IMG/VR virus record: IMGVR_UViG_3300044732_000842
Location: 1 to 25,002 of that record
Origin: a virus
Length of the DNA: 25,002 nucleotides
Reading direction: 5' to 3' (one strand)
Below, piece after piece: positions 1,949 through 22,194 of the stretch. Each line of letters starts with the position of its first letter. Position 1 is the stretch's first letter. Below the pieces are notes generated by a model. It ran no database searches. It was given only the letters and a program-made list of their open reading frames with translations, and was not told the origin of the DNA. A program made the translations under genes and the position numbers.

Positions 1949-3130
1949 ATGACGCATGCTATAGATCAAATCCTTAATGAATATTATCAAAGAAGAACAT
2001 TGCGAGAAATAAATCGTCGAAATGATGAAATTCTAAGCAGTCTGTCCAAACAGATTGCACACAATGTATATCTCACACAGCGCCAGGCCGATCTTGCGTT
2101 GAAAATTTTCAAAGACAATCATCAACATTTTCCTAGCCTTCAGGGACTATTGGAAAATCCTGTATGGAGTCATGAATTTAGAACCATTGAATATTTCAAA
2201 TACCTACATCTAATTAAACCACCAACTCAAGATCGATATTTGTTGGAATTGGGCTTCAATCACAACAAGTCATTGTCAAAAAAATTAGATGAGTTAAAGA
2301 AACAAAGTTTAACAAATCCGTTGATCAGAATCAAAAATAATGTTTGGCAAATAGTGTATTGTGAAAAAGATCTATACAGTTTGGTCAATCTGGTGTCTGG
2401 TCATAATTTTGACATTTCACCTGAAATTTTGGAAGTTTACCAAGAAATTGACAATATCTTAAAAACTCCAAATCATGATCAAATCTATATTGATGTCAAC
2501 GGATCTGAATATTTGAAAAATTCAGTGGTGAACGACATTGGCACTTTAGACAAAACTAATATTTTGTTAGAGGACCGAAAAATCAAGTTTCAATATGAAA
2601 TTTTTGACAGTTTTTTCCAAAAAACACCAGCGGTGTCACTAGAGGAAAAAATTGCTGTTAGACCAACATCACAAGTTTACATTAGTCCTACAGATTTTTC
2701 ATTGACTGAAATTGTCAGTGCGTTGCAAAAATTGCAAAGATTTCCTACGTTGATAGTGTTTGACAACAACATCGAAAAATCCATGAAAATTCTGGAAAAA
2801 CTCAATACTGCATTAACTGTTAACAATGTTGTTGATTCGGTTGGAATCTATTTTAGATATGACAACGATAAAGACGGCAAACCTTTTAATGAGATGGTCA
2901 ACCAATTGGCCTATAACAAACCATTAAATAATAATACAGCCATAGTAGGCATTACCAACTGGAAAATTCCTAAATTTTTGCTAAAAATGCAGTGGCACCC
3001 ACGCAGTGTGATAGTGATGTCATCGGTGTTCGGTTCCAATCGGGTGAACCTATATACCAAGAGTTGTGACCTAGTTATTTTTCATCAAGACAAGAAACCC
3101 TTAACAGAGGCTATAAAAGAAATTGTGTAA
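1949..3130 (+). CDS. Unrecognised protein encoded upstream of uvsW
   Basis: The product is 393 residues from the ATG at 1949. A start at 1901 would give 409 residues, but the perfect -35/-10 pair lies between the two, so the 1901 start would be upstream of the transcript. I do not recognise the family. The first 60 residues are charged and helical (LTQRQADLALKIFKDNH resembles a helical linker seen in phage DNA-metabolism proteins). The C-terminal 150 residues alternate hydrophobic strands and helices (FPTLIVFDNN, NTAIVGITNWKIP, RSVIVMSSVFG, CDLVIFHQD), like a Rossmann or RecA-type alpha/beta fold, but without a Walker A motif. It overlaps the uvsW start by 8 nt, so coupling to recombination or replication is likely. 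No function is claimed. Confidence 0.8.
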   Translation: MTHAIDQILNEYYQRRTLREINRRNDEILSSLSKQIAHNVYLTQRQADLALKIFKDNHQHFPSLQGLLENPVWSHEFRTIEYFKYLHLIKPPTQDRYLLELGFNHNKSLSKKLDELKKQSLTNPLIRIKNNVWQIVYCEKDLYSLVNLVSGHNFDISPEILEVYQEIDNILKTPNHDQIYIDVNGSEYLKNSVVNDIGTLDKTNILLEDRKIKFQYEIFDSFFQKTPAVSLEEKIAVRPTSQVYISPTDFSLTEIVSALQKLQRFPTLIVFDNNIEKSMKILEKLNTALTVNNVVDSVGIYFRYDNDKDGKPFNEMVNQLAYNKPLNNNTAIVGITNWKIPKFLLKMQWHPRSVIVMSSVFGSNRVNLYTKSCDLVIFHQDKKPLTEAIKEIV

Positions 3131-4577
3131 ATTAATTATCAAAGACGAAGTTAATATCAAGATAGAAGGTCTCAGTTTAGAAATGAGACGAAAACTCAGT
3201 AACTCGTTCAAATACGAAATTCCCTATGCTAAATTCATGCCACGGTATCGGCTTGGCCGCTGGGACGGTACCACAACCTTGTTTGGGTTAGGCGGCAATG
3301 GATACTTGAATCAATTAGAAAAAGTGTTGCAAATTCTCGAAGACAGCAATGTCGAAGTTAGCGAAGTTGAAGATTTAAGAACACCTATAAATATTTCATT
3401 TCCTGTAATAAAAGAAGATTTTTGGGGAGAACTGTGCTGGCCTGTGGGGCATAGATTTGCAGGGCAACCAATTCGTTTGCGAGACGACCAAGTCGAAGTA
3501 GTCAGTAAATTTTTAGAAAATCCACAATGCCTACAAGAAATTGCCACCGGATTTGGCAAAACTATTATCACTGCCACTTTGGCCAAATGTTGCGAATCAT
3601 TTGGCAGAACTATCTGTATTGTGCCAAATAAAAGTCTTGTGGAGCAAACTGAAGAAGATTTTATTAACTGTGGGTTGGACGTGGGAGTATATTACGGTGA
3701 TCGTAAAGAACTAGGAAAAACACATACAATCTGCACTTGGCAAAGTCTAAATATTTTAGATAAAAAAAGTAAAAATGCTGAACGAGAAATTCTTACTCTT
3801 GCTGAATTTCTCGACGGAGTAAAAACTGTGATGGTTGACGAAGTACACATGGCCAAAGCCGAAGTACTGAAAAATTTACTCACACAGAATTTTTGTAATG
3901 CTCCGGTACGTTGGGGATTGACCGGCACTGTGCCTAAAGAAGATTTCGAAAGTCAAGCAATCTTTGCCAGCCTTGGTCCAGTAGTACATCGTATCCAAGC
4001 ACACGAATTGCAGGAAAAGGGAGTGTTGTCTAACTGTCATGTCAATGTGGTCCAACTGTTGGATTTGCCTGAGTTTAGATCCTATGCAGAAGAATTAAGT
4101 TATCTAGTCACTGACGAAGACCGCATGATTTATATCAGTAAACTGATTAAAAAAATTGCCGAATCTGGCAACACACTGGTGCTGGTAAATCGAATTGACT
4201 CTGGAAAATTTATTGTTAATGAATTGCCAGACAGTGTGTTTATTTCGGGCGCAGTAAAAACCAAAGATAGAAAAGAAGAATATGACGATGTTAAAACAAG
4301 TACTAACAAGGTTATTGTGGCGACTTATGGTGTGGCCGCTGTGGGTATTAATATTCCTCGTATTTTTAATCTGGTTCTTTTGGAGCCCGGAAAGAGCTTT
4401 GTCCGAGTTATACAAAGTATTGGGCGGGGCATTAGAAAAGCAGACGACAAAGACCATGTCATGATATGGGATATTACCAGTACATGCAAATACGCAAAGC
4501 GACACTTGACTGCTAGAAAAAAATTCTATAAAGACGCCAAGTATCCTTTTACACAAGAAAAAATTGATTGGAAATAA
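3123..4577 (+). CDS. uvsW: UvsW-like SF2 DNA/RNA helicase
   Basis: The product is 484 residues, close to T4 UvsW (about 500), a helicase that unwinds branched DNA and R-loops and helps switch from origin- to recombination-driven replication. Visible motifs are motif I ATGFGKT (141-147), motif II DEVH (239-242), motif III GLTGT (265-269) and motif VI QSIGRGIRK (about 431-439). The N-terminal block with RYRLGRWDGTTTLF (41-54) matches the UvsW N-terminal domain, where T4 has a similar NPRFRYGNWDG segment. The start is TTG at 3123, overlapping the previous stop by 8 nt; no ATG lies early enough to keep the N-terminal domain. It is preceded by an unrecognised protein and followed 1 nt later by a conserved phage protein. 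Confidence 0.93.
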   Translation: MCKLIIKDEVNIKIEGLSLEMRRKLSNSFKYEIPYAKFMPRYRLGRWDGTTTLFGLGGNGYLNQLEKVLQILEDSNVEVSEVEDLRTPINISFPVIKEDFWGELCWPVGHRFAGQPIRLRDDQVEVVSKFLENPQCLQEIATGFGKTIITATLAKCCESFGRTICIVPNKSLVEQTEEDFINCGLDVGVYYGDRKELGKTHTICTWQSLNILDKKSKNAEREILTLAEFLDGVKTVMVDEVHMAKAEVLKNLLTQNFCNAPVRWGLTGTVPKEDFESQAIFASLGPVVHRIQAHELQEKGVLSNCHVNVVQLLDLPEFRSYAEELSYLVTDEDRMIYISKLIKKIAESGNTLVLVNRIDSGKFIVNELPDSVFISGAVKTKDRKEEYDDVKTSTNKVIVATYGVAAVGINIPRIFNLVLLEPGKSFVRVIQSIGRGIRKADDKDHVMIWDITSTCKYAKRHLTARKKFYKDAKYPFTQEKIDWK

Positions 4578-5085: not shown

Positions 5086-5426
5086 AACAAGGTAAAATAT
5101 GGGGCCAAACAGAATTGTTAGAGGCCAACGGAGTATTAGAATTTCATCGAATCGAGGCCAAGGCGGGTGGTGTGTGTTCAAAACACAAACATGAATTTAA
5201 ATGGAACGGATTCTTTGTTGAATCTGGAGAGATGATCATTCGTGTTTGGAAAAATAATTATGACCTAGTGGATGAAACTGTATTGACTGCTGGGCAGTAT
5301 ACAAAAGTTGCACCCGGCGAATATCATCAGTTCGAATCTGTCACTGACTGTATAGCCTTTGAACTGTATTGGGCAGAATTTGATCACAACGATATAGAAA
5401 GAGAGACTGTGGGATTTAGTAAATGA
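5082..5426 (+). CDS. Small cupin-domain protein
   Basis: The product is 114 residues, the size of a single cupin barrel. The first cupin motif is seen in KAGGVCSKHKHEFKWNGFFVESGEM (residues 27-51), with His35, His37 and Glu50 as likely metal ligands or pocket residues; the second is PGEYHQFE (78-85) with His82. Cupins of this type often accompany nucleotide-sugar genes as 3,5- or 3,4-isomerases or as sensors. Here the protein is small and soluble and opens the sugar island, overlapping both neighbours as ATGA. A sugar-isomerase or sugar-binding role is inferred only from context; the fold is well supported. Confidence 0.85.
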   Translation: MKQGKIWGQTELLEANGVLEFHRIEAKAGGVCSKHKHEFKWNGFFVESGEMIIRVWKNNYDLVDETVLTAGQYTKVAPGEYHQFESVTDCIAFELYWAEFDHNDIERETVGFSK

Positions 5427-6367: not shown

Positions 6368-6370
6368 TTT

Positions 6371-7690: not shown

Positions 7691-7700
7691 AGAGAGAAAA

Positions 7701-8804: not shown

Positions 8805-9448
8805 TGTCTGTAAAACTTGTGGTATATGATCTAGACGGCACACTAATAGATTCTGCACCCTCAACCATTTATGTACTAAATCAACTTCGTCAAGAATTGG
8901 GCAGAGCCCCTCTTCCTAATTCTGCATTTGTGCCTTGGTTAAGTTTAGGTGGTACTAGTTTAATTTCTAACTCTTTAGAATTTGAAGATGAAGGCACTGC
9001 TAAGATTTATCTACAAGAATTTCGCAAAAGGTTAAGAAAACTTGAACTAGGTCATATACCTTTGTATAAAAATGTAGACCAAACTTTATCTTTACTGTAT
9101 AATAGTAATATTAAATTGTCTATTTGTACAAGCAAGGTACGTGACCTAACTGACAAGATACTTCACGAATTAAACATAAGTTCGTATTTTTCGTATGTTG
9201 TTGCAGGGGGTGATTTACTAACTACAAAACCAGACCCTAGAAATTTATTGGCCTGTTGCGATAATTTAAATATTAGCAAGCAGGACACAATATTTGTAGG
9301 CGACAGCACAGTCGATCGAGCAACTGCTAAAAACGCAGATGTTAAATTTGCCTTATTTGAGGGCGGATACAATGATGGTGTAGACACAACTGGTATAACA
9401 ACATTTAGCGATCATTTAGAATTAGCAAATAAGGTATTAAATGGATAA
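8804..9448 (+). CDS. HAD-family phosphatase (phosphoglycolate phosphatase-like)
   Basis: The product is 214 residues. HAD motif I is DLDGTLIDS (9-17; Asp9 nucleophile, Asp11), motif II is in LSICTSK, motif III is the Lys in TTKPDPRN and motif IV is FVGDSTVDRATAKNA. The helical cap between motif I and II is that of the Gph/beta-phosphoglucomutase subgroup. Beside NeuB it is a natural candidate for the 9-phosphate phosphatase step of nonulosonate synthesis (NanP-like), or for removing phosphate from another sugar phosphate. The start overlaps the previous stop by one base (TAATG) and the end overlaps the TPP enzyme by 8 nt. Confidence 0.88.
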   Translation: MSVKLVVYDLDGTLIDSAPSTIYVLNQLRQELGRAPLPNSAFVPWLSLGGTSLISNSLEFEDEGTAKIYLQEFRKRLRKLELGHIPLYKNVDQTLSLLYNSNIKLSICTSKVRDLTDKILHELNISSYFSYVVAGGDLLTTKPDPRNLLACCDNLNISKQDTIFVGDSTVDRATAKNADVKFALFEGGYNDGVDTTGITTFSDHLELANKVLNG

Positions 9449-11240: not shown

Positions 11241-12313
11241 ATTTTGAATTTTTAGGTGAACAATGTAATAATATTGAAGTTTGTAACTTAGATCACAGAC
11301 CAGTTTGGATATTTGGTACAGGTACATTCGGTCGTTCACTTGCTAAAATATTGTTAGAAGAAGGATTTGATCTACAGGGATTTGTAGAAACTAATCCAAC
11401 AACAGATAGCATCATGGGGTTATCTGTTAAATCACTAATTGATGTTCCTAATACAACGCAATTAGCTATAGGAATTTTTAATGGGGGTGTGCCATTTAGT
11501 AATCTAAAAAAACAGGCTAACGATTTAGGGTTTACAGACATTTATATGCCTTGGAATCTTTATACACAATTTCAAAAAAAATTAGGTTGGAGATATTGGT
11601 TGAGCCATCCAGATGTAATTATTAAAAATCTCGATCGCATACAAACAGTATATGATTTATTATCTGATGAACGCAGTAAACAATGCCTAATTGATATTTG
11701 TTTGTTTAGACTGGGAAAGAAGATTTCATATGCAGAAGATGTAGACACCGATGCTCAGTATTTTAATTATCTAACGTTAGATAATCTTCCAAAAGAAATT
11801 GTTTATCTAGACGGTGGAGCATATGATGGCGATACATATTTAGATCTAAGCAATAGACTTACCGTTAAACATGCTTATCTCTTTGAACCAGACCCTGCTA
11901 ATTTTAGCAAATTAATTAAAAATGTTGAGAATCATTCTTTAACATGTATGCCAATGGCATTAACAGATTCCTACAAGATTTTAAGATTTAACGCAGCCGG
12001 CGGCGAAGGCAGTTCAGTATCAGATGATGGAAAAATGCATATAGCGGCAGTAGCACTTGACGAATTGTTACATAACCAATCTGTTGACTTTATTAAACTT
12101 GATGTAGAGGGTTCTGAAATAAGTGCCATCAAAGGTGCTTACAATACTATCAAACAGAATAGACCGGTACTAACTATATCGCTATATCATAAGCCAGATG
12201 ACCTATGGGAGATTCCTTTAGAATTATTATCTGTATGTACTGATTATAAATTTTATATAAGACAACACTACTATAATAGTTTTGACTGTGTATTGTATGG
12301 GATCCCAACATGA
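11237..12313 (+). CDS. FkbM methyltransferase with N-terminal Rossmann-like domain
   Basis: The product is 358 residues, longer than a lone FkbM domain. The N-terminus (RPVWIFGTGTFGRSLAKILL, residues 21-40) is a GxGxxG-type nucleotide-binding unit with a following FVETNP strand, similar to the small sugar-O-acyltransferase/PglD-like or NAD-binding modules fused to glycan enzymes. The C-terminal half carries SAM motif I VYLDGGAYDGDTYLDL (189-204), AYLFEPD and VDFIKLDVEGSEISAIKG, clear FkbM signatures. It probably O-methylates the sugar made by the cluster. It overlaps the TPP gene and the SDR gene by 4 nt each (ATGA). Confidence 0.85.
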   Translation: MNFEFLGEQCNNIEVCNLDHRPVWIFGTGTFGRSLAKILLEEGFDLQGFVETNPTTDSIMGLSVKSLIDVPNTTQLAIGIFNGGVPFSNLKKQANDLGFTDIYMPWNLYTQFQKKLGWRYWLSHPDVIIKNLDRIQTVYDLLSDERSKQCLIDICLFRLGKKISYAEDVDTDAQYFNYLTLDNLPKEIVYLDGGAYDGDTYLDLSNRLTVKHAYLFEPDPANFSKLIKNVENHSLTCMPMALTDSYKILRFNAAGGEGSSVSDDGKMHIAAVALDELLHNQSVDFIKLDVEGSEISAIKGAYNTIKQNRPVLTISLYHKPDDLWEIPLELLSVCTDYKFYIRQHYYNSFDCVLYGIPT

Positions 12314-13128
12314 AAATAGCAGTATTAGGAGCCAAGGGATTTGTTGGGTCATCAATAGTAGGAAACCTATCTAACAAACACGAGGTTGTTCCAGTTTCCA
12401 GAGAAACATTAAATTTGTTGGATACCGTTAAAGTAGTCGAATTTCTCAAAACAAATAAATTTGATGTTGTTGTTAATGCCGCTGCCACAATGGCAGATCC
12501 TAATGGAATAAAAGATACGTGGAATAATCTCGGTATGTTTATGAATTTTTATAATAACTCGGATTTGTTTGGCAAATTTATTAATATGGCTTCTGGGGCT
12601 GAGTATGACAGATCCAGAGATATATGCAAGGCCAAAGAATTGGAGATATTTGATCGAATACCAACGGACAGTTACGGGTTTGGTCAAAACTTAAAAAGTC
12701 GGTTATGTTACGATCGCAATAATTTTTTTACAATAAGAATTTTTAATTGTTTCGGACAAGGTGAAATCCCTACTAGAGTTTTTCCAAAATTCCTATCTAA
12801 AGGAAATCAAAAATTACAGATCACCGATGATAGATTTTTTGATTACTTTAGTGTTCAAGATTTACTGAAGATAGTTAATCACTGTATTGACAACACGTGG
12901 GCAGTTAAGGATGTTAATGCAGTATATAAAGAAAAGTTTAAGATTAGTCAGGTGTTATCTATGTTTTGCGAGTTGAATAACATTAGTCCAGATTTTGAAA
13001 TTGTGTCTCATGGTACAAACAATTATACAGGTGATAACAATAATTTAGCATCTCTAGAAATTAAATTAAATGGCATGAAACACGGATTATCAACATACAT
13101 AAAGGAAACTAATAATGTACACTATTGA
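12310..13128 (+). CDS. NAD-dependent epimerase/reductase-like SDR with altered active site
   Basis: The product is 272 residues, an extended-SDR size. The nucleotide-binding loop is VLGAKGFVGSS (5-15), and VVNAAATMADP and INMASGAEYDRS follow as in RmlD/epimerase proteins. The usual catalytic YxxxK is replaced: the segment reads DSYGFGQN, so the position of the Lys holds Gln, with a Lys three residues later. The enzyme may therefore use a shifted Lys or have lost catalysis while still binding a nucleotide sugar. In a yersiniose-like pathway a reductase is needed after the TPP step (YerF in Yersinia), and this is the only candidate in the cluster. It overlaps the following gene by 14 nt. Confidence 0.82.
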   Translation: MKIAVLGAKGFVGSSIVGNLSNKHEVVPVSRETLNLLDTVKVVEFLKTNKFDVVVNAAATMADPNGIKDTWNNLGMFMNFYNNSDLFGKFINMASGAEYDRSRDICKAKELEIFDRIPTDSYGFGQNLKSRLCYDRNNFFTIRIFNCFGQGEIPTRVFPKFLSKGNQKLQITDDRFFDYFSVQDLLKIVNHCIDNTWAVKDVNAVYKEKFKISQVLSMFCELNNISPDFEIVSHGTNNYTGDNNNLASLEIKLNGMKHGLSTYIKETNNVHY

Positions 13129-13900
13129 TCACTGTGCAGGGTGCGGGTCAACTAATGTTTCTAAAAAAACTGCGTATCTATCTCAATTTGTTTCGTGGAG
13201 AACAACAGGAAATAAACCGATGATTAATATGCCCAACTTGTTAGTTACCTGTAATGATTGCGGATTCTCAGCTTCTCGAATTCGTTTTACTAATGAAGAA
13301 GAAGCAAACTTATATAAAGACTACAGGGGTGAAAAATACAATAGGATGAGATTAGAGTGCGAACCAAAGTATGAAACTAGTTCTATTTTTAATACAAATT
13401 ATATTAACGATAGATTAGAGTTTATTACAGAAATGATTGGACGAAACATTGACTCTAATAAAATAAATTCAGTATTAGATTATGGTGGGGGTGCTGGAGA
13501 ACTAATTCCTCCAGCGTTCACAAAAGCCATTAAATATGTTTACGATATTAGTGGTGTAGAACCCTTAGACGGAATTAAAAAATTAAATCCAACAATTGAT
13601 AAAGATCCTATGGATTTTATCATGTGCTGTCAGGTACTAGAACATAAATCGGATATGGATGAATTAATTAATATTTTAAAATCATACATGGTTACAGACA
13701 GCTGGATTTATATAGAGGTTCCGGTATATAGGAATCCTCCGCCAGATGATGTTATAATAGGGGAGCATATAAACTTTTTTAACGAACAATCGCTTGTAGC
13801 AATATTAGATAGACACGGTATATGTGCAATAGATACTACAAAAAATTATATGTTAGGGGCAATGGCTGTATTAGGAAAATTTAATTCAAAAAGCTGTTAG
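13115..13900 (+). CDS. SAM methyltransferase with N-terminal zinc ribbon
   Basis: The product is 261 residues. Two CxxC pairs (Cys7/Cys10 and Cys46/Cys49) form a zinc ribbon at the N-terminus, as in sugar C-methyltransferases and related class I enzymes. SAM motif I is VLDYGGGAGEL (120-130) and a post-motif with MCCQVLEHKSDMDELIN (about 170-186) is typical of Methyltransf_12-like folds. Full sugar C-methyltransferases (about 400 residues) have an extra C-terminal domain, which is absent. Methylation of a nucleotide sugar or glycan is inferred from position. It is the last gene of the coupled run that began at 5082. Confidence 0.83.
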   Translation: MYTIDHCAGCGSTNVSKKTAYLSQFVSWRTTGNKPMINMPNLLVTCNDCGFSASRIRFTNEEEANLYKDYRGEKYNRMRLECEPKYETSSIFNTNYINDRLEFITEMIGRNIDSNKINSVLDYGGGAGELIPPAFTKAIKYVYDISGVEPLDGIKKLNPTIDKDPMDFIMCCQVLEHKSDMDELINILKSYMVTDSWIYIEVPVYRNPPPDDVIIGEHINFFNEQSLVAILDRHGICAIDTTKNYMLGAMAVLGKFNSKSC

Positions 13901-13929
13901 TAGAATATTTATTTGTATTTTATTAAGTT

Positions 13930-13937
13930 TATAAATA
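13930..13937 (+). promoter_or_regulatory. T4-type late promoter TATAAATA
   Basis: TATAAATAATCA starts at 13930. The first 8 bases are the T4 late-promoter box, normally at -13 to -6, which predicts +1 near 13943, one base before the ATG at 13944. The same 12-mer recurs at 24329. Confidence 0.8.
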
Positions 13938-13943
13938 ATCAAT

Positions 13944-14642
13944 ATGATACCATTAAATTTAAAAAACAAAATAAACAAACACGGGTTTATGTTAGCCTGT
14001 GATACTGTATACCTCAATAATTGGACTAAACCTTTATTTTTTTCAATTCAAAAATACTGTCCCTGGGCTCACATACATATTCATGTGTTTGATCCAACTC
14101 CTTCAGACATTGTCTGGCTTTCTTCTCATAACTGCTCGTACTCGACAGAAAATACTCCTTCTGAATTTACCGACTGGGCATCAAAAGGATTGTATTGGTC
14201 AGTAGCTCGGTATGCTAGAGTTTTAGAAATTTATACAGACGATACTCTAGTTATTGATTTAGATGTTGATAGTGTTGTAGTTAACCCCATTCCTCAAACA
14301 GAATTTCTTAAAGATTTAGAATCAAGTTGGGTTCCCACAAGACTTAAAGGTGGACAAATAAAAAGTTTAGCTAGTGCAGTAGGATTTGGAGCAGATCGAA
14401 CAAGATACATATTGGCCGAATTATTAATGGATGCATACAAAAATAATAAATTAGTATTTGCCGCGGATCAAGCAATACTAAATGGTATGATTGGAAGAAA
14501 CGAAATTAAAAAAATGGATTTAAGATATACTGATTATAAATTTGGTAAAAACGGAGTTTCTTATATCTGGACCGGAAAAGGCGACAGAGTTAAAGAGCCT
14601 AAATTTGTTAAAATGATTGATCAATATAGACATATGAAATAA
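13944..14642 (+). CDS. Glycosyltransferase-like protein (GT-A, DxD)
   Basis: The product is 232 residues from the ATG at 13944, six bases after the late-promoter box; an internal Met16 is a weaker alternative. The sequence opens with GFMLACDTVYLNNWTKPLFFSI, the first strand and helix of a GT-A fold, and TLVIDLDVDSVVVNPI (101-116) carries a DxDxD run (Asp105, Asp107, Asp109) as the nucleotide-sugar/metal motif. AADQAILNGMI near residue 175 matches the acceptor-side DQ..N motif of related GT8/GT77-like proteins. With its own late promoter it is likely expressed with virion genes, so it may glycosylate a virion protein or attach the cluster sugar. Donor unknown. Confidence 0.8.
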   Translation: MIPLNLKNKINKHGFMLACDTVYLNNWTKPLFFSIQKYCPWAHIHIHVFDPTPSDIVWLSSHNCSYSTENTPSEFTDWASKGLYWSVARYARVLEIYTDDTLVIDLDVDSVVVNPIPQTEFLKDLESSWVPTRLKGGQIKSLASAVGFGADRTRYILAELLMDAYKNNKLVFAADQAILNGMIGRNEIKKMDLRYTDYKFGKNGVSYIWTGKGDRVKEPKFVKMIDQYRHMK

Positions 14643-14875: not shown

Positions 14876-15141
14876 CTCCAGGCGCAACTTATATATACGA
14901 GCGAAATGGTGAGGAAATATACGCTAGAGAGTTTGGTTCTGACTCGAGCACACGCCAAATAATTGGTTATGATCACAAACTAGATTCTCGCACTAATGAT
15001 GGAAGACCCTTATATGATCGCATTATGGAAGACAAGATGTGGGGTGAAATTCGCCGTATGGCTCCCACCAATCCTGCTTTACAAAAGGCCTTGGATCGTG
15101 CTATAATGATATACAGACTAAGCAAGGATAATCCGCAGTGA
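14863..15141 (+). CDS. Small conserved T4-like phage protein
   Basis: The product is 92 residues (GSLTPGATYIYERNGEEIYAREFG near the start, DHKLDSRTNDGRPLYDRIMEDKMW in the middle). It fits, from memory, a small protein conserved in marine T4-like phages, with no known function. The start is ATG at 14863 with a GGAAG run 7 nt upstream; that region also encodes the end of the GalE remnant in another frame, so the ribosome site now depends on a decayed gene. It is charged and soluble, without a signal peptide. It overlaps the next gene by 4 nt (GTGA). Confidence 0.82.
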   Translation: MGSLTPGATYIYERNGEEIYAREFGSDSSTRQIIGYDHKLDSRTNDGRPLYDRIMEDKMWGEIRRMAPTNPALQKALDRAIMIYRLSKDNPQ

Positions 15142-15617
15142 GTGAAAAACTCGAACTCAAAGAAAAATTAGCAGCCATTGATCTCGGGGCAAGATCTCTA
15201 TGGGATGATGTTAACGAAGACGAACGCAAACGTATTAAAGGTGAATTTTTCATCCTCAATCGATACATCAGCAGTGTTAAAAGCAACAATAGGGATGTTG
15301 CAGAACATTATGTGTTGGCAGTGAATGAGTACTTTAACAAACACTGGTACACATTACAACAACATCCAAAACTGTTGTGGCAACTGTTGTGTCTATGCGG
15401 CCATGATAGCAAACAAGTATTTTTTCATGAGTGGATTGGTTTTAAGAAAAAAGAAAAAGCCACTAACAAAAAAACTAAATTTTTATCCGAGGCATTTCCC
15501 AATGCTAAATTAACCGATATAGAATTGATGAGTAAGATAATGCCTATTGCAGAATTGAAATTACATGCTGAACGGTTGGGATATGATGATCAACAAATTA
15601 AAAAATTGCTTGACTGA
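15138..15617 (+). CDS. Conserved T4-like phage protein, possibly replication related
   Basis: The product is 159 residues from a GTG start at 15138 that overlaps the previous stop. It is mostly helical: GEFFILNRYISSVK, AEHYVLAVNEYFNKHW, HPKLLWQLLCLCG, HEWIGFKKKEKATNKKTKFL, then a C-terminal helix pair (FPNAKLTDIELMSKI, LGYDDQQIKKLL). In size and in the aromatic N-terminal/basic middle pattern it recalls small clamp-loader subunits (T4 gp62), but key gp62 features such as the KR-x-x-x-W-x-K stretch are not clear, so I do not assign it. It lies 8 nt before the zinc-finger protein, and these small genes look co-transcribed. Confidence 0.78.
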   Translation: MSEKLELKEKLAAIDLGARSLWDDVNEDERKRIKGEFFILNRYISSVKSNNRDVAEHYVLAVNEYFNKHWYTLQQHPKLLWQLLCLCGHDSKQVFFHEWIGFKKKEKATNKKTKFLSEAFPNAKLTDIELMSKIMPIAELKLHAERLGYDDQQIKKLLD

Positions 15618-15625
15618 AATAAGGT

Positions 15626-16330
15626 ATGTTAAAATTGTTAGATCAACCAGTTAGTCAACTGTATGTGTGTGAACACTGCGGAACCAAGTTTACCAAAGAA
15701 AAAACTCTGGTTGTGCATATGTGCGAGCAAAAACGTAGATATCTTGCCAAGGATGAAAAACATGTTATCTTAGGATATACGGTATACAATCGATTCTATA
15801 GACTAACACAAAAACAAAAGCATGACAAAACATATTTAGAGTTTGCCAAGAGCCCCTATTACAATGCATTTGTAAAATTTGGCAGTTTCATGCACAATGT
15901 TAATCCTCTGTATCCAGATCAATACATTGACTTCGTGGTAATCAGCGGTGTCAAACTGGATCATTGGTGTAGAGAAGAATTGTATGAAAAATTTGTACTG
16001 CATCTAATTAAAACAGAATCGGTAGAGATTGCCTTAGAGAGATCTATTGATACCATGTCAAAGTGGGCTGTAGAAAACAATGCTGTATGGAATCATTATT
16101 TCAATTACATCAGCCCCAGCAGAGCCATGTTTAATATTAAAGATGGAAAGATATCTCCATGGCTGTTGTTGAACTGCAATTCTGGTAGAAATTTATTAAA
16201 TACATTTAATGACGAACAATTGGCAGCAGTAGCAACAATGATTGATCCACCGTTCTGGAAGAAAAAGTTTCGTGATAAAAAGTTCGACATGGAACTGATT
16301 ACGCAGGTAGTCAAGGAGTCAAATTTATAA
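15626..16330 (+). CDS. Zinc-finger protein conserved in T4-like phages
   Basis: The product is 234 residues. Cys15, Cys18, His31 and Cys33 (CEHC...VHMCEQ) make a C2HC zinc finger at the N-terminus, which suggests nucleic-acid or protein binding. The rest (SPYYNAFVKFGSFMHNVNPLYP, SGVKLDHWC, YISPSRAMFNIKDGKISPWLLLNC, MIDPPFWKKKF) fits, from memory, a conserved marine T4-like phage family of unknown function. The A of its TAA stop is the first base of the ATG of the polymerase-III-like gene, so the two are translated together and may act together in DNA metabolism. An AAGG lies only 1 nt before the ATG, an unusually short spacing. Confidence 0.85.
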   Translation: MLKLLDQPVSQLYVCEHCGTKFTKEKTLVVHMCEQKRRYLAKDEKHVILGYTVYNRFYRLTQKQKHDKTYLEFAKSPYYNAFVKFGSFMHNVNPLYPDQYIDFVVISGVKLDHWCREELYEKFVLHLIKTESVEIALERSIDTMSKWAVENNAVWNHYFNYISPSRAMFNIKDGKISPWLLLNCNSGRNLLNTFNDEQLAAVATMIDPPFWKKKFRDKKFDMELITQVVKESNL

Positions 16331-16908
16331 TGCCAGATATCGACATTGATTTCTACGATCGCACCAAAGCACTAGAACATTTCACTCATGTGCGATCTAG
16401 TCGTGTAGACGGTGACAAGTTAGTGGCACATAACACAGGCATTTATGTAACTGACATACCACATGATCCTATTACTAATCTAGCCAACATTGATTACAAC
16501 GAGGCAGAAAATCGAGGTTATTTTAAATTAGATTTTCTCAATGTTGGTATCTATAAAGATGTAAGAGATGAAGAGCATCTTAAAACTTTAATGGAGGCTG
16601 AGCCACTATGGGACCTTTTAGAGCAGGACGATTTCAGCAATTTACTGTTTCATGTCAACGGCCATGGCGCCATTCTGCGGCAGATGAAACCCACGAGTAT
16701 ACTCCAACTAGCGGCAATTTTGGCTATGATAAGACCAGCCAAGAGACATTTGATTGGGAAGGACTGGACGACAGTGATGACGACTATTTGGACAAAGCCC
16801 GAGGATGGTGAGTACTACTTTAAGAAGAGTCATGCTGTGGCCTATGCACAGGCAGTGGTAGTACAAATGAACTTGATATGCGAGCAGATCAGTTACGGTT
16901 ACAGTTAA
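16330..16908 (+). CDS. Mini DNA polymerase III alpha (DnaE palm)-like protein
   Basis: The product is 192 residues, against about 1,100 for bacterial DnaE. It starts at ATG 16330 with AAGGAG about 11 nt upstream. Three blocks follow DnaE order: MPDIDIDFYDR (1-11; Asp3, Asp5, Asp7) matches the catalytic PDxDxDF; NTGIYVTDIP to NRGYFKLDFLNVGIY (35-75; Asp68) matches the HAxGVVI...GxxKxDFLGL block that carries the third catalytic Asp; LFHVNGHGAILRQMKPTSILQLAAILAMIRPAK (106-138) and YYFKKSHAVAYAQAVVVQMNLI (162-183) match the FQ-x-ES-G-M-x-x-x-x-x-xxP...LIAL-RPG and FNKSHAxAYA segments. The PHP, most of the fingers, and the clamp- and tau-binding domains are missing. Function is unknown; polymerase activity is not implied. 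Confidence 0.85.
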   Translation: MPDIDIDFYDRTKALEHFTHVRSSRVDGDKLVAHNTGIYVTDIPHDPITNLANIDYNEAENRGYFKLDFLNVGIYKDVRDEEHLKTLMEAEPLWDLLEQDDFSNLLFHVNGHGAILRQMKPTSILQLAAILAMIRPAKRHLIGKDWTTVMTTIWTKPEDGEYYFKKSHAVAYAQAVVVQMNLICEQISYGYS

Positions 16909-16930
16909 CGTTTTCTTACTAACTGTACCG
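16896..16930. terminator. Hairpin across convergent stop codons, possible bidirectional terminator
   Basis: CGGTTACAGTTA (16896-16907) can pair with TAACTGTACCG (16920-16930), with one bulged T and a 12-nt loop. The left arm and loop edge hold GTTAAC, in which both convergent genes end: TAA at 16906-16908 on the + strand and TAA as the complement of 16905-16907. There is no strong T-run on either side, so termination is a guess. Confidence 0.4.
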
Positions 16931-17276
16931 ATTTACGTTTAACTCGTCTCAGCGTTAAACTTAATATGTTAACCACTGGGCCTAGAATTATCACTACATC
17001 TTTACTGTTGAATGTTTTAATAGCATATTTAAAAGGCTCTAAATCTTTCTTGAGAAAAATATTAATGGGGACTTGACGATTACTTTCCCACCACCATATT
17101 TCACCTTGCTCTAACAGAGCGGTTTTTTCGTCTGGTGTTTTGATAGCACTGAGATCGTAAAAACTGGTAACGTATTGATCTTGATTTATCATCATGCCAA
17201 CATACTCTTGCTCACCGTAGGTCAGCACAGTAATGAAAGGGAGGGTTTGTTCTATGTTTTCTCTTAATTTAACCAT
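16905..17276 (-). CDS. Small - strand phage protein of unknown function
   Basis: The product is 123 residues from the ATG at 17276 (MVKLRENIEQTLPFITVLTYG); the frame extends upstream to a TTG at 17303, but the ATG is the natural start and lies under a late-type promoter on this strand. It has the segment GEQEYVGMMINQDQYVTSFYD, then a Trp-rich stretch WWWESNR and a basic C-terminus ending in RRVKRKSVQLVRKR. No membrane segment or known domain is visible, though the final hydrophobic stretch (DVVIILGPVVNILSL) could be a short buried helix. It seems to be a conserved small phage protein. It is the only - strand gene between 1.9 and 24.9 kb and converges on the polymerase-III-like gene. Confidence 0.75.
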   Translation of the reverse strand: MVKLRENIEQTLPFITVLTYGEQEYVGMMINQDQYVTSFYDLSAIKTPDEKTALLEQGEIWWWESNRQVPINIFLKKDLEPFKYAIKTFNSKDVVIILGPVVNILSLTLRRVKRKSVQLVRKR

Positions 17277-17283
17277 ATAAATA
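17276..17283 (+). promoter_or_regulatory. T4-type late promoter TATAAATA of the 17298 gene
   Basis: The perfect late box at 17276-17283 predicts +1 near 17289. An AAAGGGGA ribosome site (17285-17292) and the ATG at 17298 follow. The T of the box is also the last base of the reverse start codon (CAT 17274-17276) of the leftward gene. Confidence 0.75.
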
Positions 17284-17297
17284 CAAAGGGGATCCAA

Positions 17298-18050
17298 ATG
17301 CAAAAAATTTCAAGTTATTTATATCCAAACCGTGTGATAGTCATAGCGGATTTGGTTTCCTTTCCTGTGGAGATGCAAATCGTGTATCAGCGTATAATAA
17401 AAATTTATAAAAATATTGACAACGTCATCGAATTTGATGTAAAAAATGCTGATCAAAAACGTATCAGTTTAACCAACTACACTATTAAATTTGTCATGAC
17501 AGATTTGAATAATGCATTGATTACAGAAAAGATCGCAACACTGTCTGAGATCACAGGCATATGTTCTGTGAACATAGACGAAAACGACACACTAAATCTA
17601 GACCGTGGATTTTATAATTTTGCAGTGTATATTGAAACAGACAGCGGTGTCAAAACGCTGTTGTATGCAGATGCTAATTTTGGCGGCAAAGGCAAGATTG
17701 AATTGGTTGGGGACTTGATGCCAGTGCCCAGGCCAGTGATCAATATTGCCAGTTTCTTAGAGGAACAAAGTGTACTATACAGCAGTGCGGTCACTGCAGA
17801 ACCAGGCATCAATGGAGACCAAGCACTGCATACCTTTGCTTTTTATCCTACAGCATTGAATGGTACAGTGTACATTGATGCCAGCCTTAGTGAAACCAGC
17901 CAAAGTGTACAATGGGTAGAATTGGACGACTTTGCTGTGGTTCCGGGGGACACAACCTTTTACAAAAACTACACAGGTGTGTACAGTTGGTTTAGAATTA
18001 GATACACCAAGACAGCCGGAACACTTGACAAAGTACTACTGAGAAACTAA
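17298..18050 (+). CDS. Probable virion/baseplate-type structural protein
   Basis: The product is 250 residues. The N-terminal 150 residues (VYQRIIKIYKNIDNVIEFDVKNADQKRISLTNYTIKFVMTD, about 28-68) match the pattern of the N-terminal module of phage baseplate upper proteins (BppU-like): an Ig-like sandwich that starts with a repeated hydrophobic D-N-x-x-x-F-x-V-K strand. The C-terminal half (VYIDASLSETSQSVQWVELDDF, YSWFRIRYTK) is a second beta-rich domain, perhaps carbohydrate-binding. There is no signal peptide. It is expressed from its own late promoter with a good ribosome site, as expected for a virion part, while the adjacent replication genes have sigma70-like promoters. The exact T4 equivalent is not identified. 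Confidence 0.75.
   Translation: MQKISSYLYPNRVIVIADLVSFPVEMQIVYQRIIKIYKNIDNVIEFDVKNADQKRISLTNYTIKFVMTDLNNALITEKIATLSEITGICSVNIDENDTLNLDRGFYNFAVYIETDSGVKTLLYADANFGGKGKIELVGDLMPVPRPVINIASFLEEQSVLYSSAVTAEPGINGDQALHTFAFYPTALNGTVYIDASLSETSQSVQWVELDDFAVVPGDTTFYKNYTGVYSWFRIRYTKTAGTLDKVLLRN
17316..17323 (-). promoter_or_regulatory. T4-type late promoter on the - strand, inside the 17298 gene
   Basis: TATTTATA at 17316-17323 is the reverse complement of TATAAATA. It predicts a leftward transcript from about 17310, giving the gene starting at 17276 a leader of about 34 nt. It lies over codons 7-9 of the rightward gene, so the two late promoters are crossed. Confidence 0.55.
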
Positions 18051-18060: not shown

Positions 18061-19041
18061 ATGAGTCTTATCTTAGAAACCGTACAACAACATTTACCGG
18101 CAAAGCGAAAATCAACCCCTAGTGGGTGGATCAGTTTCAATGCGGTGTGCTGTCATCACAATGGCACCAGTGCTGACAATAGACAGCGTGGCGGCATCAT
18201 GTTGAATGAAGGAGTCAGTTATCATTGTTTCAACTGTGGATTTAAATCTAGTTGGCAACCTGGCCGACACGTCAGTGTAAAGTTTAAAAAACTTCTGCGA
18301 TGGTTGAATGTTTCTGACAGTGACATCAATAAGTGCATGTTAGATGCTCTGAGACGTCACGAAGGTATCGAAGACACTGGAATTAAAAATCCAATTCCTA
18401 CCTTTATAGACAAAGCATTGCCCAGAGGCGCTGAACCCATCGTAAGTTATCTGGATAATCCTCCTGCTGAACTAATGCCAGTATTGCAGTATCTAACTGA
18501 GAGAAAACTGTATTTGGAGGATTATGACTTTTACTGGACAGATGAAGATGGATTCCAAAATAGATTAATTATTCCCTTTTACTTTCAAAATCGTATTGTG
18601 GGATACACTGCTAGAAAAATCACAGAAGGCAAACCCAAATACATCAGTGAACAACAGCCGGGGTATGTGTTTAATTTGGATCAACAAGGTCTCGATCAAA
18701 AGTTTGTCATAGTTGTAGAAGGACCAATTGATGCAATCTGTATCAAAGGTGTGGCCTTGACCAGCGCCGAAGTTGGAGACAGTCAGCGAGCGTTGATCAA
18801 TCGATTACAGCGTCAAGTGATAGTGTTGCCTGATCGAGATCAAGCCGGATGTCGTTTGATAGATCAGGCATTGGAGTTCGGGTGGAGTGTGAGTTTTCCC
18901 GAGTGGGGAGACGATGTCAAAGATGTAAATGATGCTGTGAAAAAATTCGGCAGACTATATACATTGTGGAGCATTGTGCATCACTGTGAGAGCAATGCTC
19001 TTAAAATACAATTGAGGATGAAAAAATGGTTAGTAAAATAA
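18061..19041 (+). CDS. 61: DNA primase (T4 gp61-like)
   Basis: The product is 326 residues, close to T4 gp61 (342), the DnaG-type primase that makes RNA primers with the gp41 helicase. The N-terminal zinc ribbon uses Cys/His residues at 30-33 (CCHH) and Cys56/Cys59 (HCFNCG). The TOPRIM domain shows FVIVVEGPIDAI (215-226; catalytic Glu220) and VIVLPDRDQAG (253-263; Asp258, Asp260). The middle segment NRLIIPFYFQNRIVGYTARKI is the DnaG-family basic region before TOPRIM. It lies under its own sigma70-like promoter. Its end overlaps a 38-residue gene, and the helicase gene is about 1.7 kb downstream on the same strand. Confidence 0.93.
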   Translation: MSLILETVQQHLPAKRKSTPSGWISFNAVCCHHNGTSADNRQRGGIMLNEGVSYHCFNCGFKSSWQPGRHVSVKFKKLLRWLNVSDSDINKCMLDALRRHEGIEDTGIKNPIPTFIDKALPRGAEPIVSYLDNPPAELMPVLQYLTERKLYLEDYDFYWTDEDGFQNRLIIPFYFQNRIVGYTARKITEGKPKYISEQQPGYVFNLDQQGLDQKFVIVVEGPIDAICIKGVALTSAEVGDSQRALINRLQRQVIVLPDRDQAGCRLIDQALEFGWSVSFPEWGDDVKDVNDAVKKFGRLYTLWSIVHHCESNALKIQLRMKKWLVK

Positions 19042-19142
19042 TTTATTGGTTGTCTACACCGTGGCGTAGATATCAGCAACGACGAGCCCTAGCACGACGA
19101 ATTGAAGAATTACGCAAACGTGACCCGTTTATTTACAAATGA
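19026..19142 (+). CDS. 38-residue basic microprotein
   Basis: This short gene starts at ATG 19026, inside the last codons of the primase gene in another frame (16-nt overlap), and ends at TGA 19140-19142, which overlaps the next ATG as ATGA. The product opens MVSKIIYWLSTPWRRYQQRR and ends ARRIEELRKRDPFIYK: a short hydrophobic start, then a very basic helix. The same C-terminal run (EELRKRDPFIYK) recurs, from memory, in small proteins of T4-like marine phages, which supports it being real. The amphipathic start could lie on a membrane; the rest could bind nucleic acid. No function is known. Confidence 0.7.
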   Translation: MVSKIIYWLSTPWRRYQQRRALARRIEELRKRDPFIYK

Positions 19143-19738
19143 CCATACTAGCAGTAGGATGTAGTTTTTTATGCGATAGATCTGAGGTGCGGCCCCAGTG
19201 TGCTGTCATGGCCGAACGACTTGATCAGCCGCTGGACAATCGCAGTATCCCCGGCAACGGAAACACACACATCCTGTACAACACAATGACAGCCATAATC
19301 GAAAATCCCAACAAGTATTCCTTGGTTTTAATCGGATGGAGCAATCCTGGTAGATGGGATTTTGTAACTGCTCCACACAAGTGGTTTGCCTTAAAGATGG
19401 GTAACGTCATAGGAACAGCCACTGATAAAAAAATAAATTTTGAATTAACATTATTTAAACATTGGGCTCCTCAAGTGCTTTTGTTATCTTCTTGGCTGAG
19501 ATCGAGAAACATTCCTTTTATAATGTGGAACAGTTTAGAATGTTGGTTAGAAGGAGAAAGCACGTTACATAAAGAAATTTTGTCTATACCCGAATTTTAT
19601 AAACCAAAAATAAATCATATTGCTGATCTAAGAGAAAGAGAACAATGGATTTCAAATGATGATCATCATCCAAATCAACAGAGTCATGATCTGTGGGCTC
19701 AAGAATTATTAGACTTTAATAGGACTTTATATAAATGA
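19139..19738 (+). CDS. SGNH/GDSL-hydrolase-like protein
   Basis: The product is 199 residues. Block I is VGCSF (6-10; nucleophile Ser9), a GNGNTH stretch near 39-44 supplies the block II/III Gly and Asn, and NDDHHPNQQSHDLWAQEL (173-190) carries the DxxH of block V (Asp174, His177). That is the SGNH esterase layout, used by carbohydrate deacetylases and acyl esterases. There is no signal peptide. It lies between primase and carbamoyltransferase, overlapping both neighbours by 4 nt, so it is in the same coupled string. Removal or transfer of an acyl group on a phage or host glycan is the likely role, inferred from the fold. Confidence 0.82.
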   Translation: MTILAVGCSFLCDRSEVRPQCAVMAERLDQPLDNRSIPGNGNTHILYNTMTAIIENPNKYSLVLIGWSNPGRWDFVTAPHKWFALKMGNVIGTATDKKINFELTLFKHWAPQVLLLSSWLRSRNIPFIMWNSLECWLEGESTLHKEILSIPEFYKPKINHIADLREREQWISNDDHHPNQQSHDLWAQELLDFNRTLYK

Positions 19739-20685
19739 TTGAATGGGGCATCAACGCTCTTAATCACGGCAGCAGCCTGGCGGTGTTCAAGGATGGCGTA
19801 TTTCAGCAGGCCACATTCAGCACTGACGACGAACTGCCTAGCGATGTTATTCGCACAGCACTGGATTTTAGTGCTCCTGATCGCATCTATTGGTATGAAA
19901 ATCCATGGCTTAAGAAGGCAAGACAAATACGTGCCAAACAATACAGCACAGCATTTGACTTAACCAACTTGCCTTCACGCTATCTTAAACAAGCAAGATT
20001 AGGATATGCTCCAATAACCTATACGCAACATCACACCAGTCATGCTGCCGCAGGTTATTACACAAGTCCTTTTAATCATTGTGCTATTGTGGTGCTGGAT
20101 GCCATAGGTGAGTTTGAATGTGCTACTATATGGGAAGGTCGGTACGGGGAAATGAAGAAAGTGTGGAGTAGAAGTTATCCACATAGTTTGGGATTGTTTT
20201 ATAGTGCATTTACTCAGTTTGTTGGCCTAACACCAATCCGCGACGAACACTTATTTCAAAAGATGGCTGCTCAAGGAACTCCAAATAGATTTCGTAGAGA
20301 AGTAGGCAATTACTTTGGTGTTGGACCAGTTGAATTAACTGAAAACTTTCATAGAGGTGTACGGACGTGGGATCAAAATATGTTAAGCACATTGCAAGAA
20401 CAATGTGATCTTGCTGCCGCAGTTCAGGAACGCTTTGAAATTGAAATAAGCAAAGTGATGTGCGAGGCTCAACGATTAGTCAATACCGATTGTCTAGTGT
20501 ACATGGGCGGGTGTGCTATGAATAGTGCCGCTAACAAACAAGAAGTAGAACCCAAGTTTAAATATCGTTGGAGTTTGCCAAATCCTGGAGACCCTAGCAG
20601 CGCAATAGGTGCTGTGGCCTATCATCGTAAACAACGAATACATCACGACTGGGCACCAGTCAAACACCTTGCAATTAATGTATAA
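19735..20685 (+). CDS. Carbamoyltransferase, N-terminal domain only (NodU/TobZ-like)
   Basis: The product is 316 residues against about 550-600 for NodU/TobZ. The HSP70/actin-like first domain is present: GINALNHGSSLAVF (5-18), QHHTSHAAAGYYTSPF (98-113; His99, His103 as metal ligands), VVLDAIGEFECATIW (Asp122), GGCAMNSAANK (near 258) and LPNPGDPSSAIGA. The second domain, which in TobZ forms carbamoyl phosphate-derived adenylate or completes transfer, is absent, and the gene ends in a normal stop with no remnant downstream. So this is either a minimal enzyme or one needing a partner. It is placed among DNA replication genes but probably decorates a sugar or a nucleoside. Confidence 0.88.
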   Translation: MIEWGINALNHGSSLAVFKDGVFQQATFSTDDELPSDVIRTALDFSAPDRIYWYENPWLKKARQIRAKQYSTAFDLTNLPSRYLKQARLGYAPITYTQHHTSHAAAGYYTSPFNHCAIVVLDAIGEFECATIWEGRYGEMKKVWSRSYPHSLGLFYSAFTQFVGLTPIRDEHLFQKMAAQGTPNRFRREVGNYFGVGPVELTENFHRGVRTWDQNMLSTLQEQCDLAAAVQERFEIEISKVMCEAQRLVNTDCLVYMGGCAMNSAANKQEVEPKFKYRWSLPNPGDPSSAIGAVAYHRKQRIHHDWAPVKHLAINV

Positions 20686-20703: not shown

Positions 20704-22194
20704 ATGACCACAAGACAAAACGCAGACTATGGATATGATATCCAAAAACTTTATTTAGAAATGATGCTCTCTGATGCAGAGACATTTGTACGCTGTCAAA
20801 GCATCTTTGATCACGAACTGTTTGACAGAAAACTACAAAGTACTGCCAAGTTTGTCAATGACTATGTAACAGATCACAGTGTATTGCCCACGTATGATAT
20901 TGTCAATGCTGCCACTGGCAGTAAACTACAGCGAGCAGATGATTTAAAAGAAGAACATTATGATTGGTTATTGACAGACTTTGAAACATTTATTCGACAC
21001 AAAGGTTTGGAAAAAGCCATTCTTGAAAGCGCAGATTTATTGGAAAAGGGCGAGTATGGCCCAGTTGAGGATCTAGTCAAACGAGCAGTGCAAATTGGCT
21101 TGACCAAAGACATGGGCACAGACTACTTTTTAGATCCTCGCGCTCGTTTAATGAGGATCAAAGACAACAACGGCCAAATGAAAACTGGTTGGGAGACTGT
21201 GGACAAGCGACTGTTCGGGGGTATGAATCGCGGAGAACTCAATATCTTTGCCGGCGGTTCGGGTGCGGGCAAAAGTCTGTTTCTAGCCAACTTGGGAGTC
21301 AACTGGGCACTGCAAGGACTCAACGTAGTATACTTGACATTAGAACTCAGCGAGGAATTGGTCAGTATGCGTATTGACAGTATGATTACTGAAATTCCTG
21401 TGCGAGAGATTTTCAAGCAGATCGACGATGTAGAAATGCGGGTTAAAATTATCGGCAAGAAGTCGGGCACATATCAAGTAAAATATCTTGCCAGTGGCAA
21501 AACTGCCAACGATGTGCGCAGTTACTTGAAAGAATATGAAATCAAATTGGGTCGTAAAGTTGACATACTGTTAGTGGACTACTTGGATCTGTTGATGCCC
21601 ATCAGCAAAAAGATCTCCGCAGAAAATCTGTTTATCAAGGACAAGTATGTCAGTGAAGAACTGCGTAATTTGGCAGTAGAGAAAAACTGTGTGCTGGTCA
21701 CGGCAGCACAGTTGAATCGTGGTGCAGTTGAAGAAGTAGAATTTGATCACAGCCATATTTCAGGTGGACTTAGCAAGATTCAAACAGCAGACAACGTGTT
21801 TGGTATCTTTACCAGTCGAGCCATGCGTGAACGGGGCAAGTATCAAATACAGTTGATGAAAACTCGCAGTTCAAGCGGTGTGGGCATGAAGATTGATCTA
21901 GATTTTGACATTGACACATTGCGTATTACAGATCCAGGAGAAGATGAATATCAAGCCCAAAGTGGCACAAGTTCACCGTCACAAATCTATAATCAGATCA
22001 AACAAAAATCTAACATACAATCCGGTGACAGTGACACTGCCGCTACTGCTTCTGGGACTGCATGGCAACGTGGACAACCGCGAGCGGGAGTGGATCCTTT
22101 GGCTGGCATCAGCGTGGCAAAACCCAAAGCCACTGTGGAAAGTAGCAAACTACGTGAACTGATCAACAACATTGGCAACGATGATTCACTGTGA
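20704..22194 (+). CDS. 41: Replicative DNA helicase (T4 gp41/DnaB-like)
   Basis: The product is 496 residues (T4 gp41 is 475). The N-terminal 130 residues are the helical collar; FAGGSGAGKSLFLANLGVNWALQG (182-205) is Walker A, VVYLTLELSEEL follows it, VDILLVDYLDLL (about 280-291) is Walker B, and VTAAQLNRGA and HISGGLSKIQTADNVF are the DnaB-family motifs H3 and H4. The last 65 residues are low-complexity (SGTSSPSQ, AATASGTAWQRGQP), a likely flexible tail. It drives the replication fork with the gp61-like primase encoded just upstream. A strong sigma70-like promoter directly precedes it. Confidence 0.95.
   Translation: MTTRQNADYGYDIQKLYLEMMLSDAETFVRCQSIFDHELFDRKLQSTAKFVNDYVTDHSVLPTYDIVNAATGSKLQRADDLKEEHYDWLLTDFETFIRHKGLEKAILESADLLEKGEYGPVEDLVKRAVQIGLTKDMGTDYFLDPRARLMRIKDNNGQMKTGWETVDKRLFGGMNRGELNIFAGGSGAGKSLFLANLGVNWALQGLNVVYLTLELSEELVSMRIDSMITEIPVREIFKQIDDVEMRVKIIGKKSGTYQVKYLASGKTANDVRSYLKEYEIKLGRKVDILLVDYLDLLMPISKKISAENLFIKDKYVSEELRNLAVEKNCVLVTAAQLNRGAVEEVEFDHSHISGGLSKIQTADNVFGIFTSRAMRERGKYQIQLMKTRSSSGVGMKIDLDFDIDTLRITDPGEDEYQAQSGTSSPSQIYNQIKQKSNIQSGDSDTAATASGTAWQRGQPRAGVDPLAGISVAKPKATVESSKLRELINNIGNDDSL

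Follow-up and report, generated by a model that had tools for sequence, protein, structure and literature searches.

A gene for the probable C-terminal subunit of a split, minimal DnaE-like DNA polymerase in a viral genome fragment

A minimal DNA polymerase III (Pol III) alpha, split into separate genes and found beside a family B DNA polymerase (PolB), was described in the group 2.2 jumbo phages by Iyer et al. 2021 (PMC7824862), and the section of that paper on these enzymes proposes the minimal family C form as ancestral rather than reduced. The N-terminal piece of phage Atu_ph07 (gp316) is already named as a Pol III alpha subunit in the pertinent part of Attai et al. 2018 (PMC6102473). Here we analyse a gene of the virus record IMGVR_UViG_3300044732_000842 of IMG/VR (positions 1 to 25,002; this whole stretch of 25,002 nucleotides is called the window), which lies at 16330-16908 on the plus strand and is probably the C-terminal subunit of such a two-gene minimal Pol III alpha, the pair being likely an auxiliary polymerase beside PolB. 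We refer to its product as the C-piece and to the complementary half, encoded by a second gene in relatives, as the N-piece. The original prediction, made from the letters of the window, had considered a family C remnant to be unexpected in a T4-like virus; given the description by Iyer et al., it is not.

The open reading frame (ORF) starts with ATG, ends with TAA and encodes 192 amino acids (aa). We counted conservation in two sets of sequences: a set of 12, consisting of the window sequence plus those of 11 named phages that tblastn had retrieved (out of 63 phage records) and free of any bias due to pattern retrieval, and a set of 119 distinct metagenomic or phage ORFs, whose loci were fetched by peptide patterns, some containing DxDxD, so that the 119-ORF count overstates the conservation of the acids. 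The features of the gene are as follows.

16330..16908, plus strand: probable C-terminal subunit of a split minimal DnaE-like (family C) polymerase, 192 aa (phrog_11778, E 1e-69; predicted local distance difference test score, pLDDT, of the model 88.4; Z 5.7-9.3 to 14 family C entries)
16336..16350, plus strand: catalytic-type acids D3 and D5 with the DnaE-type third Asp, D7 (= E. coli D401, D403, D405); invariant in 12/12 and 119/119
16429..16449, plus strand: HNTGIYV, aligned by eye with HAGGVVI, which we take to be its counterpart motif in DnaE; H34 invariant in 119/119 and 12/12
16525..16533, plus strand: K66 and D68 of the K-x-D-F-L block (D68 = E. coli D555); invariant in 119/119 and 12/12, aligned to KMDFL of Mycobacterium tuberculosis (Mtb) DnaE
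16684..16743, plus strand: fingers fragment MKPTS...RPAK, residues 119-138; DNA_pol3_finger positions 50-78 (weak match) and, in Mtb DnaE, the block whose last residue is 664 of the chain; P121, R135, P136 and K138 invariant in 119/119
16819..16833, plus strand: FKKSH block, residues 164-168, = DnaE FNKSH (alignment to Mtb DnaE; conservation in the 119 ORFs)

All the motifs quoted in the original prediction were found where it had placed them. The C-piece opens with M1-P-D3-I-D5-I-D7-F8, carries its third acid in K66-L-D68-F-L70 and has FKKSHAVAYA as residues 164-173, with the acidic triad and the later motifs in DnaE order. D3, D5 and D68 align with D401, D403 and D555 of E. coli DnaE and, being invariant in 12/12 sequences, are not freely substituted. 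In the E. coli numbering of the acids, D405 is an Asp in DnaE and an Asn in PolC, according to the part of PMC3919608 that concerns them; by this rule D7, an Asp in 119/119 ORFs, is of the DnaE and not of the PolC type.

Much of DnaE is absent from the chain. In the sequence alignment with Mtb DnaE about 100 residues are gone between PDxDxDF and KxDFL (Mtb 425-567 faces just 41 C-piece residues, 13-54) and about 87 inside the fingers (Mtb 664-773 faces 22 residues, 138-160), the first gap being presumably at the thumb position of DnaE. The thumb and full-length fingers, both used to define family C, are hence lacking in the C-piece. The family search returned no PHP domain in the C-piece, and GxGRGS is not part of its chain, this motif being encoded by a separate gene in relatives.

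The gene has many homologues. Family 11778 of PHROG ('DNA polymerase') matched residues 3-186 of the C-piece with E 1e-69, and phrog_405 with E 2e-9. A tblastn search against phage records gave 63 records, each with at least 80% query coverage; identity was 34-55% among the 60 records listed, all of them from large or jumbo-type phages or fragments thereof. A profile of five C-piece sequences, starting at PDIDIDF, matched Mycobacterium DnaE in PDB with E 3.5e-4, and a scan of viral contigs gave at least 557 relatives. A chance match of motifs was ruled out by PHROG 11778, the tblastn homologues, the PDB profile match and the fold match reported below. As to a bacterial chromosomal origin, a scan of genome contigs gave at least 7 loci, of which six resembled bacterial DnaE at 25-31% and one, L308, was the sole true relative among the loci listed. 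This contig (L308:1-3733), binned in a metagenome-assembled genome of Natrialbaceae (haloarchaeal), has the C-piece (58%), a zinc finger, a convergent gene, p250 and the start of a primase in the same order as in the window; it is probably a misbinned phage contig, and otherwise would be the first archaeal-associated member. By eye, the C-piece of PA5oct (L003:7983-8585) bears a short C-terminal tail, DPFKLFS, similar to a clamp-binding peptide, which is not present in the other named phages aligned.

In the set of 12 sequences 24 positions are invariant, including D3, D5, D7, K66, D68, R135, P136, K138, H168 and Y172. In the set of 119, D3, D5, D7, H34, K66 and D68 never change, and neither do P121, R135, P136 and K138. 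The median ratio of nonsynonymous to synonymous substitution rates (dN/dS) was 0.11 over 313 close pairs for the C-piece and 0.09 for the N-piece, the latter over only 7 pairs. Every one of 165 C ORFs has its bounding stops within its own locus, which together with the median dN/dS of 0.11 rules out a degenerate pseudogene. ORF 16330-16908 is a real, conserved gene.

The AlphaFold2 model of the C-piece, built on 68 sequences, has a mean pLDDT of 88.4, with 67 for the first ten residues. Its 14 best structural matches are all DnaE/PolC-type polymerases (two of them titled just 'DNA polymerase'), with Z 5.7-9.3, and the next match has Z 2.8. Residues 1 to about 190 align with Mtb 419-811, Thermus aquaticus (Taq) 461-841 and E. 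coli 400-784, so the last residue of the C-piece corresponds to E. coli 781-784. M1 falls on Taq 461 and Mtb M419, which puts D3 and D5 on the acids of PDxDxDF, and the E. coli alignments starting at 400 or 401 have a one-residue shift at that end. Foldseek alone gave E 4.6e-4 for the C-piece model and 0.05 for that of the N-piece. The models thus suggest a Pol-beta-like palm/fingers fold in the C-piece, in agreement with the original prediction of a reduced family C palm/fingers relative that keeps all its catalytic-type acids. The low confidence of the first ten residues, which hold the D3-D7 strand, would fit a part that needs a partner.

The same prediction had also called the protein a condensed polymerase core. 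It is a relative of the DnaE palm and fingers, as claimed; it is incomplete alone, because in relatives the N-terminal palm segment, with GxGRGS, is encoded by a second, distant gene. We searched the whole genomes of four phages with the DnaE families and found in 4/4 a second gene matching the start of the DnaE palm. The N-pieces of these four phages are 169-177 aa long; near their end is the GxGRGS block, after which come EFL(x) or EFLxx and the stop. A profile of the four sequences gave DnaE (Thermus, Mycobacterium, E. coli) as its nine best matches in PDB, and the three alignments printed for it end at FLN of FERFLN, a few residues before PDIDIDF. Since the homology of the N-piece ends at FERFLN and the C-piece starts at PDxDxDF, the palm is cut between them and the window gene encodes what follows. 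The position of the cut is nearly fixed: the stop lies exactly 35 residues past the first G of GxGRGS in 65 of 72 distinct N ORFs closed at the 3' end, and 36-41 residues past it in the rest.

The N-piece model (50 sequences, pLDDT 90.1) agrees with this assignment, residues 65-167 aligning with E. coli 278-392 and Taq 293-454 with Z 7.4-12.0 across the matches to family C enzymes; for both models, family C polymerases alone matched above background. Residues 1-67 (locus L101 5848-6048; pLDDT of the block 83-93) have no structural match among those listed, though this does not amount to evidence for a novel fold; they occupy the place of PHP in DnaE. No natural fusion of the two halves was found, no ORF among 165 C and 99 N ORFs containing both, and no remnant of an intein or of trans-splicing was seen by eye in the N tails or C starts, a dedicated intein search not having been made. 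The genes around the N-piece in the four named phages are annotated as MazG, GroES/chaperonin, clamp loader or PhoH. In PA5oct neither piece has the note of detection by electrospray ionization tandem mass spectrometry (ESI-MS/MS) that some neighbours bear, which is weak evidence against a structural protein.

We then considered the two pieces and PolB together in 11 named jumbo phages (Atu_ph07, Phosso, PA5oct, RaK2, SCTP-2, Stenotrophomonas CM1, Vibrio 2.275.O, XaC1, GAP32, PBECO4 and BF). Both pieces are present in 11/11, as separate genes at distances of about 14-224 kb. PolB was matched above the cut-off in 11/11 as well. Three of seven metagenomic records picked for the C-piece have the N-piece and PolB. 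Five further metagenomic records were examined: the one picked for the C-piece has C-piece, N-piece and PolB, and of the four picked for the N-piece three have the C-piece and all have PolB. PHP was found in 0/11 genomes of the named phages (control 14/14). As for the rest of DnaE, the DNA_pol3_finger matches in these genomes are the C gene itself, bar one in GAP32, and the HhH, OB and clamp-binding parts (e.g. PF14579) were not searched for. The match in GAP32 (201372-201467, in a frame of 558 aa, E 0.016) is a second, weak one and is probably due to chance.

In DnaE the metal-binding acids and fingers on one side and the GxGRGS loop on the other are neighbours in a single active site, and because both parts adjoin there, a non-covalent heterodimer is the simplest reading of the two genes. 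We infer the following arrangement. The C-piece would supply the Mg-binding acids D3, D5 and D68 together with a portion of the palm and a short stretch of the fingers, and the N-piece (about 170 aa, encoded far off near clamp-loader, chaperonin and PhoH genes in relatives) would supply the first part of the palm, with its GxGRGS expected to hold the phosphates of the incoming nucleotide. The two would complete one Pol-beta-like active site by folding onto each other, with no covalent link between them as far as can be judged from the sequences. The complex would be a short-range auxiliary DNA polymerase for repair, gap filling or primer extension, with the family B enzyme as main replicase. 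Precisely, an auxiliary role is the more likely one because PolB is present in 11/11 named phages, and short-range synthesis is suggested by the absence of the thumb and of PHP.

Several observations weigh against this arrangement. The other four of the seven metagenomic records picked for the C-piece (141-199 kb) have no N-piece, and they are also without PolB; in one 349 kb metagenomic record (G009) the N-piece and PolB are present and the C-piece is not detectable. The searches with the single C-piece sequence were weak (DNA_pol3_finger in Pfam, E 0.13; DnaE 5lew in PDB, E 0.33), so it is profiles and structure that carry the relationship with DnaE. As a fragment of 25 kb, the window has its own N-piece and PolB outside the view; the N-piece is expected and is not seen because the record has just 25,002 bases. 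Finally, a thumbless complex might bind DNA poorly.

The C gene lies within a conserved replication module, represented in the window by the following genes.

3123..4577, plus strand: UvsW-like helicase, upstream end of the conserved module (family and PHROG matches, gene order)
15138..15617, plus strand: conserved module gene, 159 aa (phrog_11758; PHROG match and gene-order comparison)
15626..16330, plus strand: CCHC-type zinc-finger protein (phrog_11058), conserved neighbour (PHROG match; C15, C18, H31 and C33 invariant in 5 sequences)
16905..17303, minus strand: conserved convergent gene (phrog_11637; product of 132 aa) that overlaps the polymerase gene at the 3' end of the latter and has the opposite strand in 79/80 loci
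18061..19041, plus strand: DnaG/T4 gp61-like primase (phrog_47, E 1.7e-39)
20704..22194, plus strand: DnaB/T4 gp41-like replicative helicase (PF03796, E 6.8e-19; phrog_19, E 1.1e-67)

The order in relatives with sufficient flanking DNA is uvsW, p92, p159, zinc finger, C-piece, convergent 132 aa gene, p250, primase and helicase; all nine genes are present in this order in 46 of 80 loci, the remainder being truncated or without single members. For the zinc-finger gene we took from the 80 loci one per distinct C protein and required about 1 kb upstream, which left 67 loci. In 66 of these 67, and in the four named phages checked, the gene is upstream of the C gene. Its junction with the C gene in the window is indeed the TAATG overlap (16328-16332) that the original prediction had read as the mark of a functional pair. 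Such an overlap occurs in only 8 of the 66 loci, with gaps of mostly 166-425 bases and some of more than 2.6 kb, and for this reason we regard the adjacency as part of the module and not as evidence of a private pair.

Two stretches of the window interrupt this order. Between uvsW and p159, positions 5082-14642 hold a sugar-biosynthesis cassette with a cupin, an NAD-dependent sugar dehydratase, a DegT aminotransferase, a NeuB-family synthase, a HAD phosphatase, a thiamine pyrophosphate enzyme, FkbM and other methyltransferases and an epimerase. The cassette looks like a surface-glycan or nonulosonic-acid-type island inserted inside the replication module, because the gap from uvsW to p159 is about 10.6 kb in the window versus 0.5-7.1 kb in 66 relatives (with the visible span limited by a flank of 10 kb). 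In PA5oct, RaK2 and Phosso the primase and helicase genes adjoin each other; in the window two ORFs separate them at positions 19139-20685, by eye one like an SGNH-type hydrolase and the other like the N-terminal half of a carbamoyltransferase.

Other explanations have to be compared with that of a two-gene auxiliary polymerase. The two pieces could form an active nucleotidyltransferase that is not template-directed, for instance a terminal transferase, an enzyme that modifies RNA or nucleotides, or one that repairs ends together with a nuclease. The Pol-beta palm superfamily holds many non-polymerase enzymes, the thumb and most of the fingers positions are gone relative to DnaE, and PolB is available for replication; we nevertheless consider this unlikely, since the conserved DnaE-specific KPxS...RP and FKKSH suggest that the contacts with template and dNTP are still used, and the C gene is between the UvsW and the primase/helicase genes in the conserved module. 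That the protein has no catalysis and serves as a decoy or scaffold, bound to the replisome of the host or to a replication protein of the phage, is very unlikely; roles as decoy and as scaffold were also raised in the original prediction. The lack of PHP and the end of the C-piece at the equivalent of E. coli 781-784 would leave no full alpha role possible, and a decoy would suit this; it would not need acids and a GRGS that are invariant across very divergent phages, and the clamp- and tau-binding regions, expected in a decoy, presumably lie in alpha beyond the end of the C-piece.

The location of the C gene in the primase/helicase module, and that of the N gene near clamp-loader genes, could be read as those of the main replicase, with PolB as the auxiliary enzyme; this is highly improbable, because PolB is above the cut-off in 11/11 named phages and an enzyme without thumb, PHP and a recognised clamp-binding part would be a poor processive replicase. 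We hold it to be just as doubtful that the functional pair is the C-piece with the upstream zinc-finger protein, despite the constant presence of the zinc-finger gene, since its spacing from the C gene is so variable and the N-piece is precisely the complementary segment of the same fold, hence the better-supported partner; the zinc finger may be an additional partner beside the N-piece. We also put forward, as a tentative extension of the two-gene auxiliary polymerase, that an active site which stays split between two genes for good, at a boundary kept almost to the residue and in phages that retain PolB as well, serves a dedicated activity absent from PolB and DnaE (e.g. priming-linked synthesis or gap filling without a thumb, turned on when the subunits assemble), perhaps as a minimal ancestral family C enzyme.

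If active, the complex of the two pieces would be among the smallest family C polymerases, with a catalytic centre built in trans, and could be used directly to study the roles of the thumb, PHP and most of the fingers. It would bear on whether two unrelated DNA polymerases are necessary in large T4-like phages and on whether the minimal family C form is ancestral or reduced. The large size of the family, and its presence in cultured phages of laboratory hosts, make it practical to study.

Compared with bacterial DnaE (E. coli, T. aquaticus, M. tuberculosis), the phage enzyme has the same palm acids, KxDFL, fingers blocks and fold, and an Asp at D7; it differs in that DnaE is one chain of more than 1100 aa with PHP, thumb, full fingers, HhH, OB and clamp/tau parts, while the phage has two chains of about 192 and 170 aa. 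A polymerase gene in several pieces is also present in a jumbo phage of the same group, Pseudomonas phage MIJ3; in the portion of its report that describes the gene (PMC6892783), it is of family B and split around an intein, whereas here inspection of the piece ends by eye revealed none, no dedicated search having been made. The members of PHROG 11778 (Atu_ph07 gp074, RaK2 gp411 and Phosso XYS97594) are full-length homologues that differ from the window gene by sequence only (34-55% identity in the matches listed), and the annotation of both pieces in Phosso is 'DnaE-like DNA polymerase III alpha'. From the split enzyme of Iyer et al. the window gene differs in nothing essential, as far as the text description of that enzyme and Atu_ph07, by which the relatives were matched, allow the comparison: Atu_ph07, a named member of group 2.2, carries a homologue 55% identical to the window gene, and the N-piece and C-piece are separate, distant genes accompanied by PolB in 11/11 named phages. 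No experimental study of the split enzyme was found in our literature search, whose scope was outside subscription journals and preprints. Because the split form was published by Iyer et al. 2021, the window gene is of a known kind; it adds a relative to it and is ordinary for its phage group. New here are the cut point, the missing thumb segment, the conservation counts, the co-occurrence in 11/11 phages, the gene-order statistics and the fold tests.
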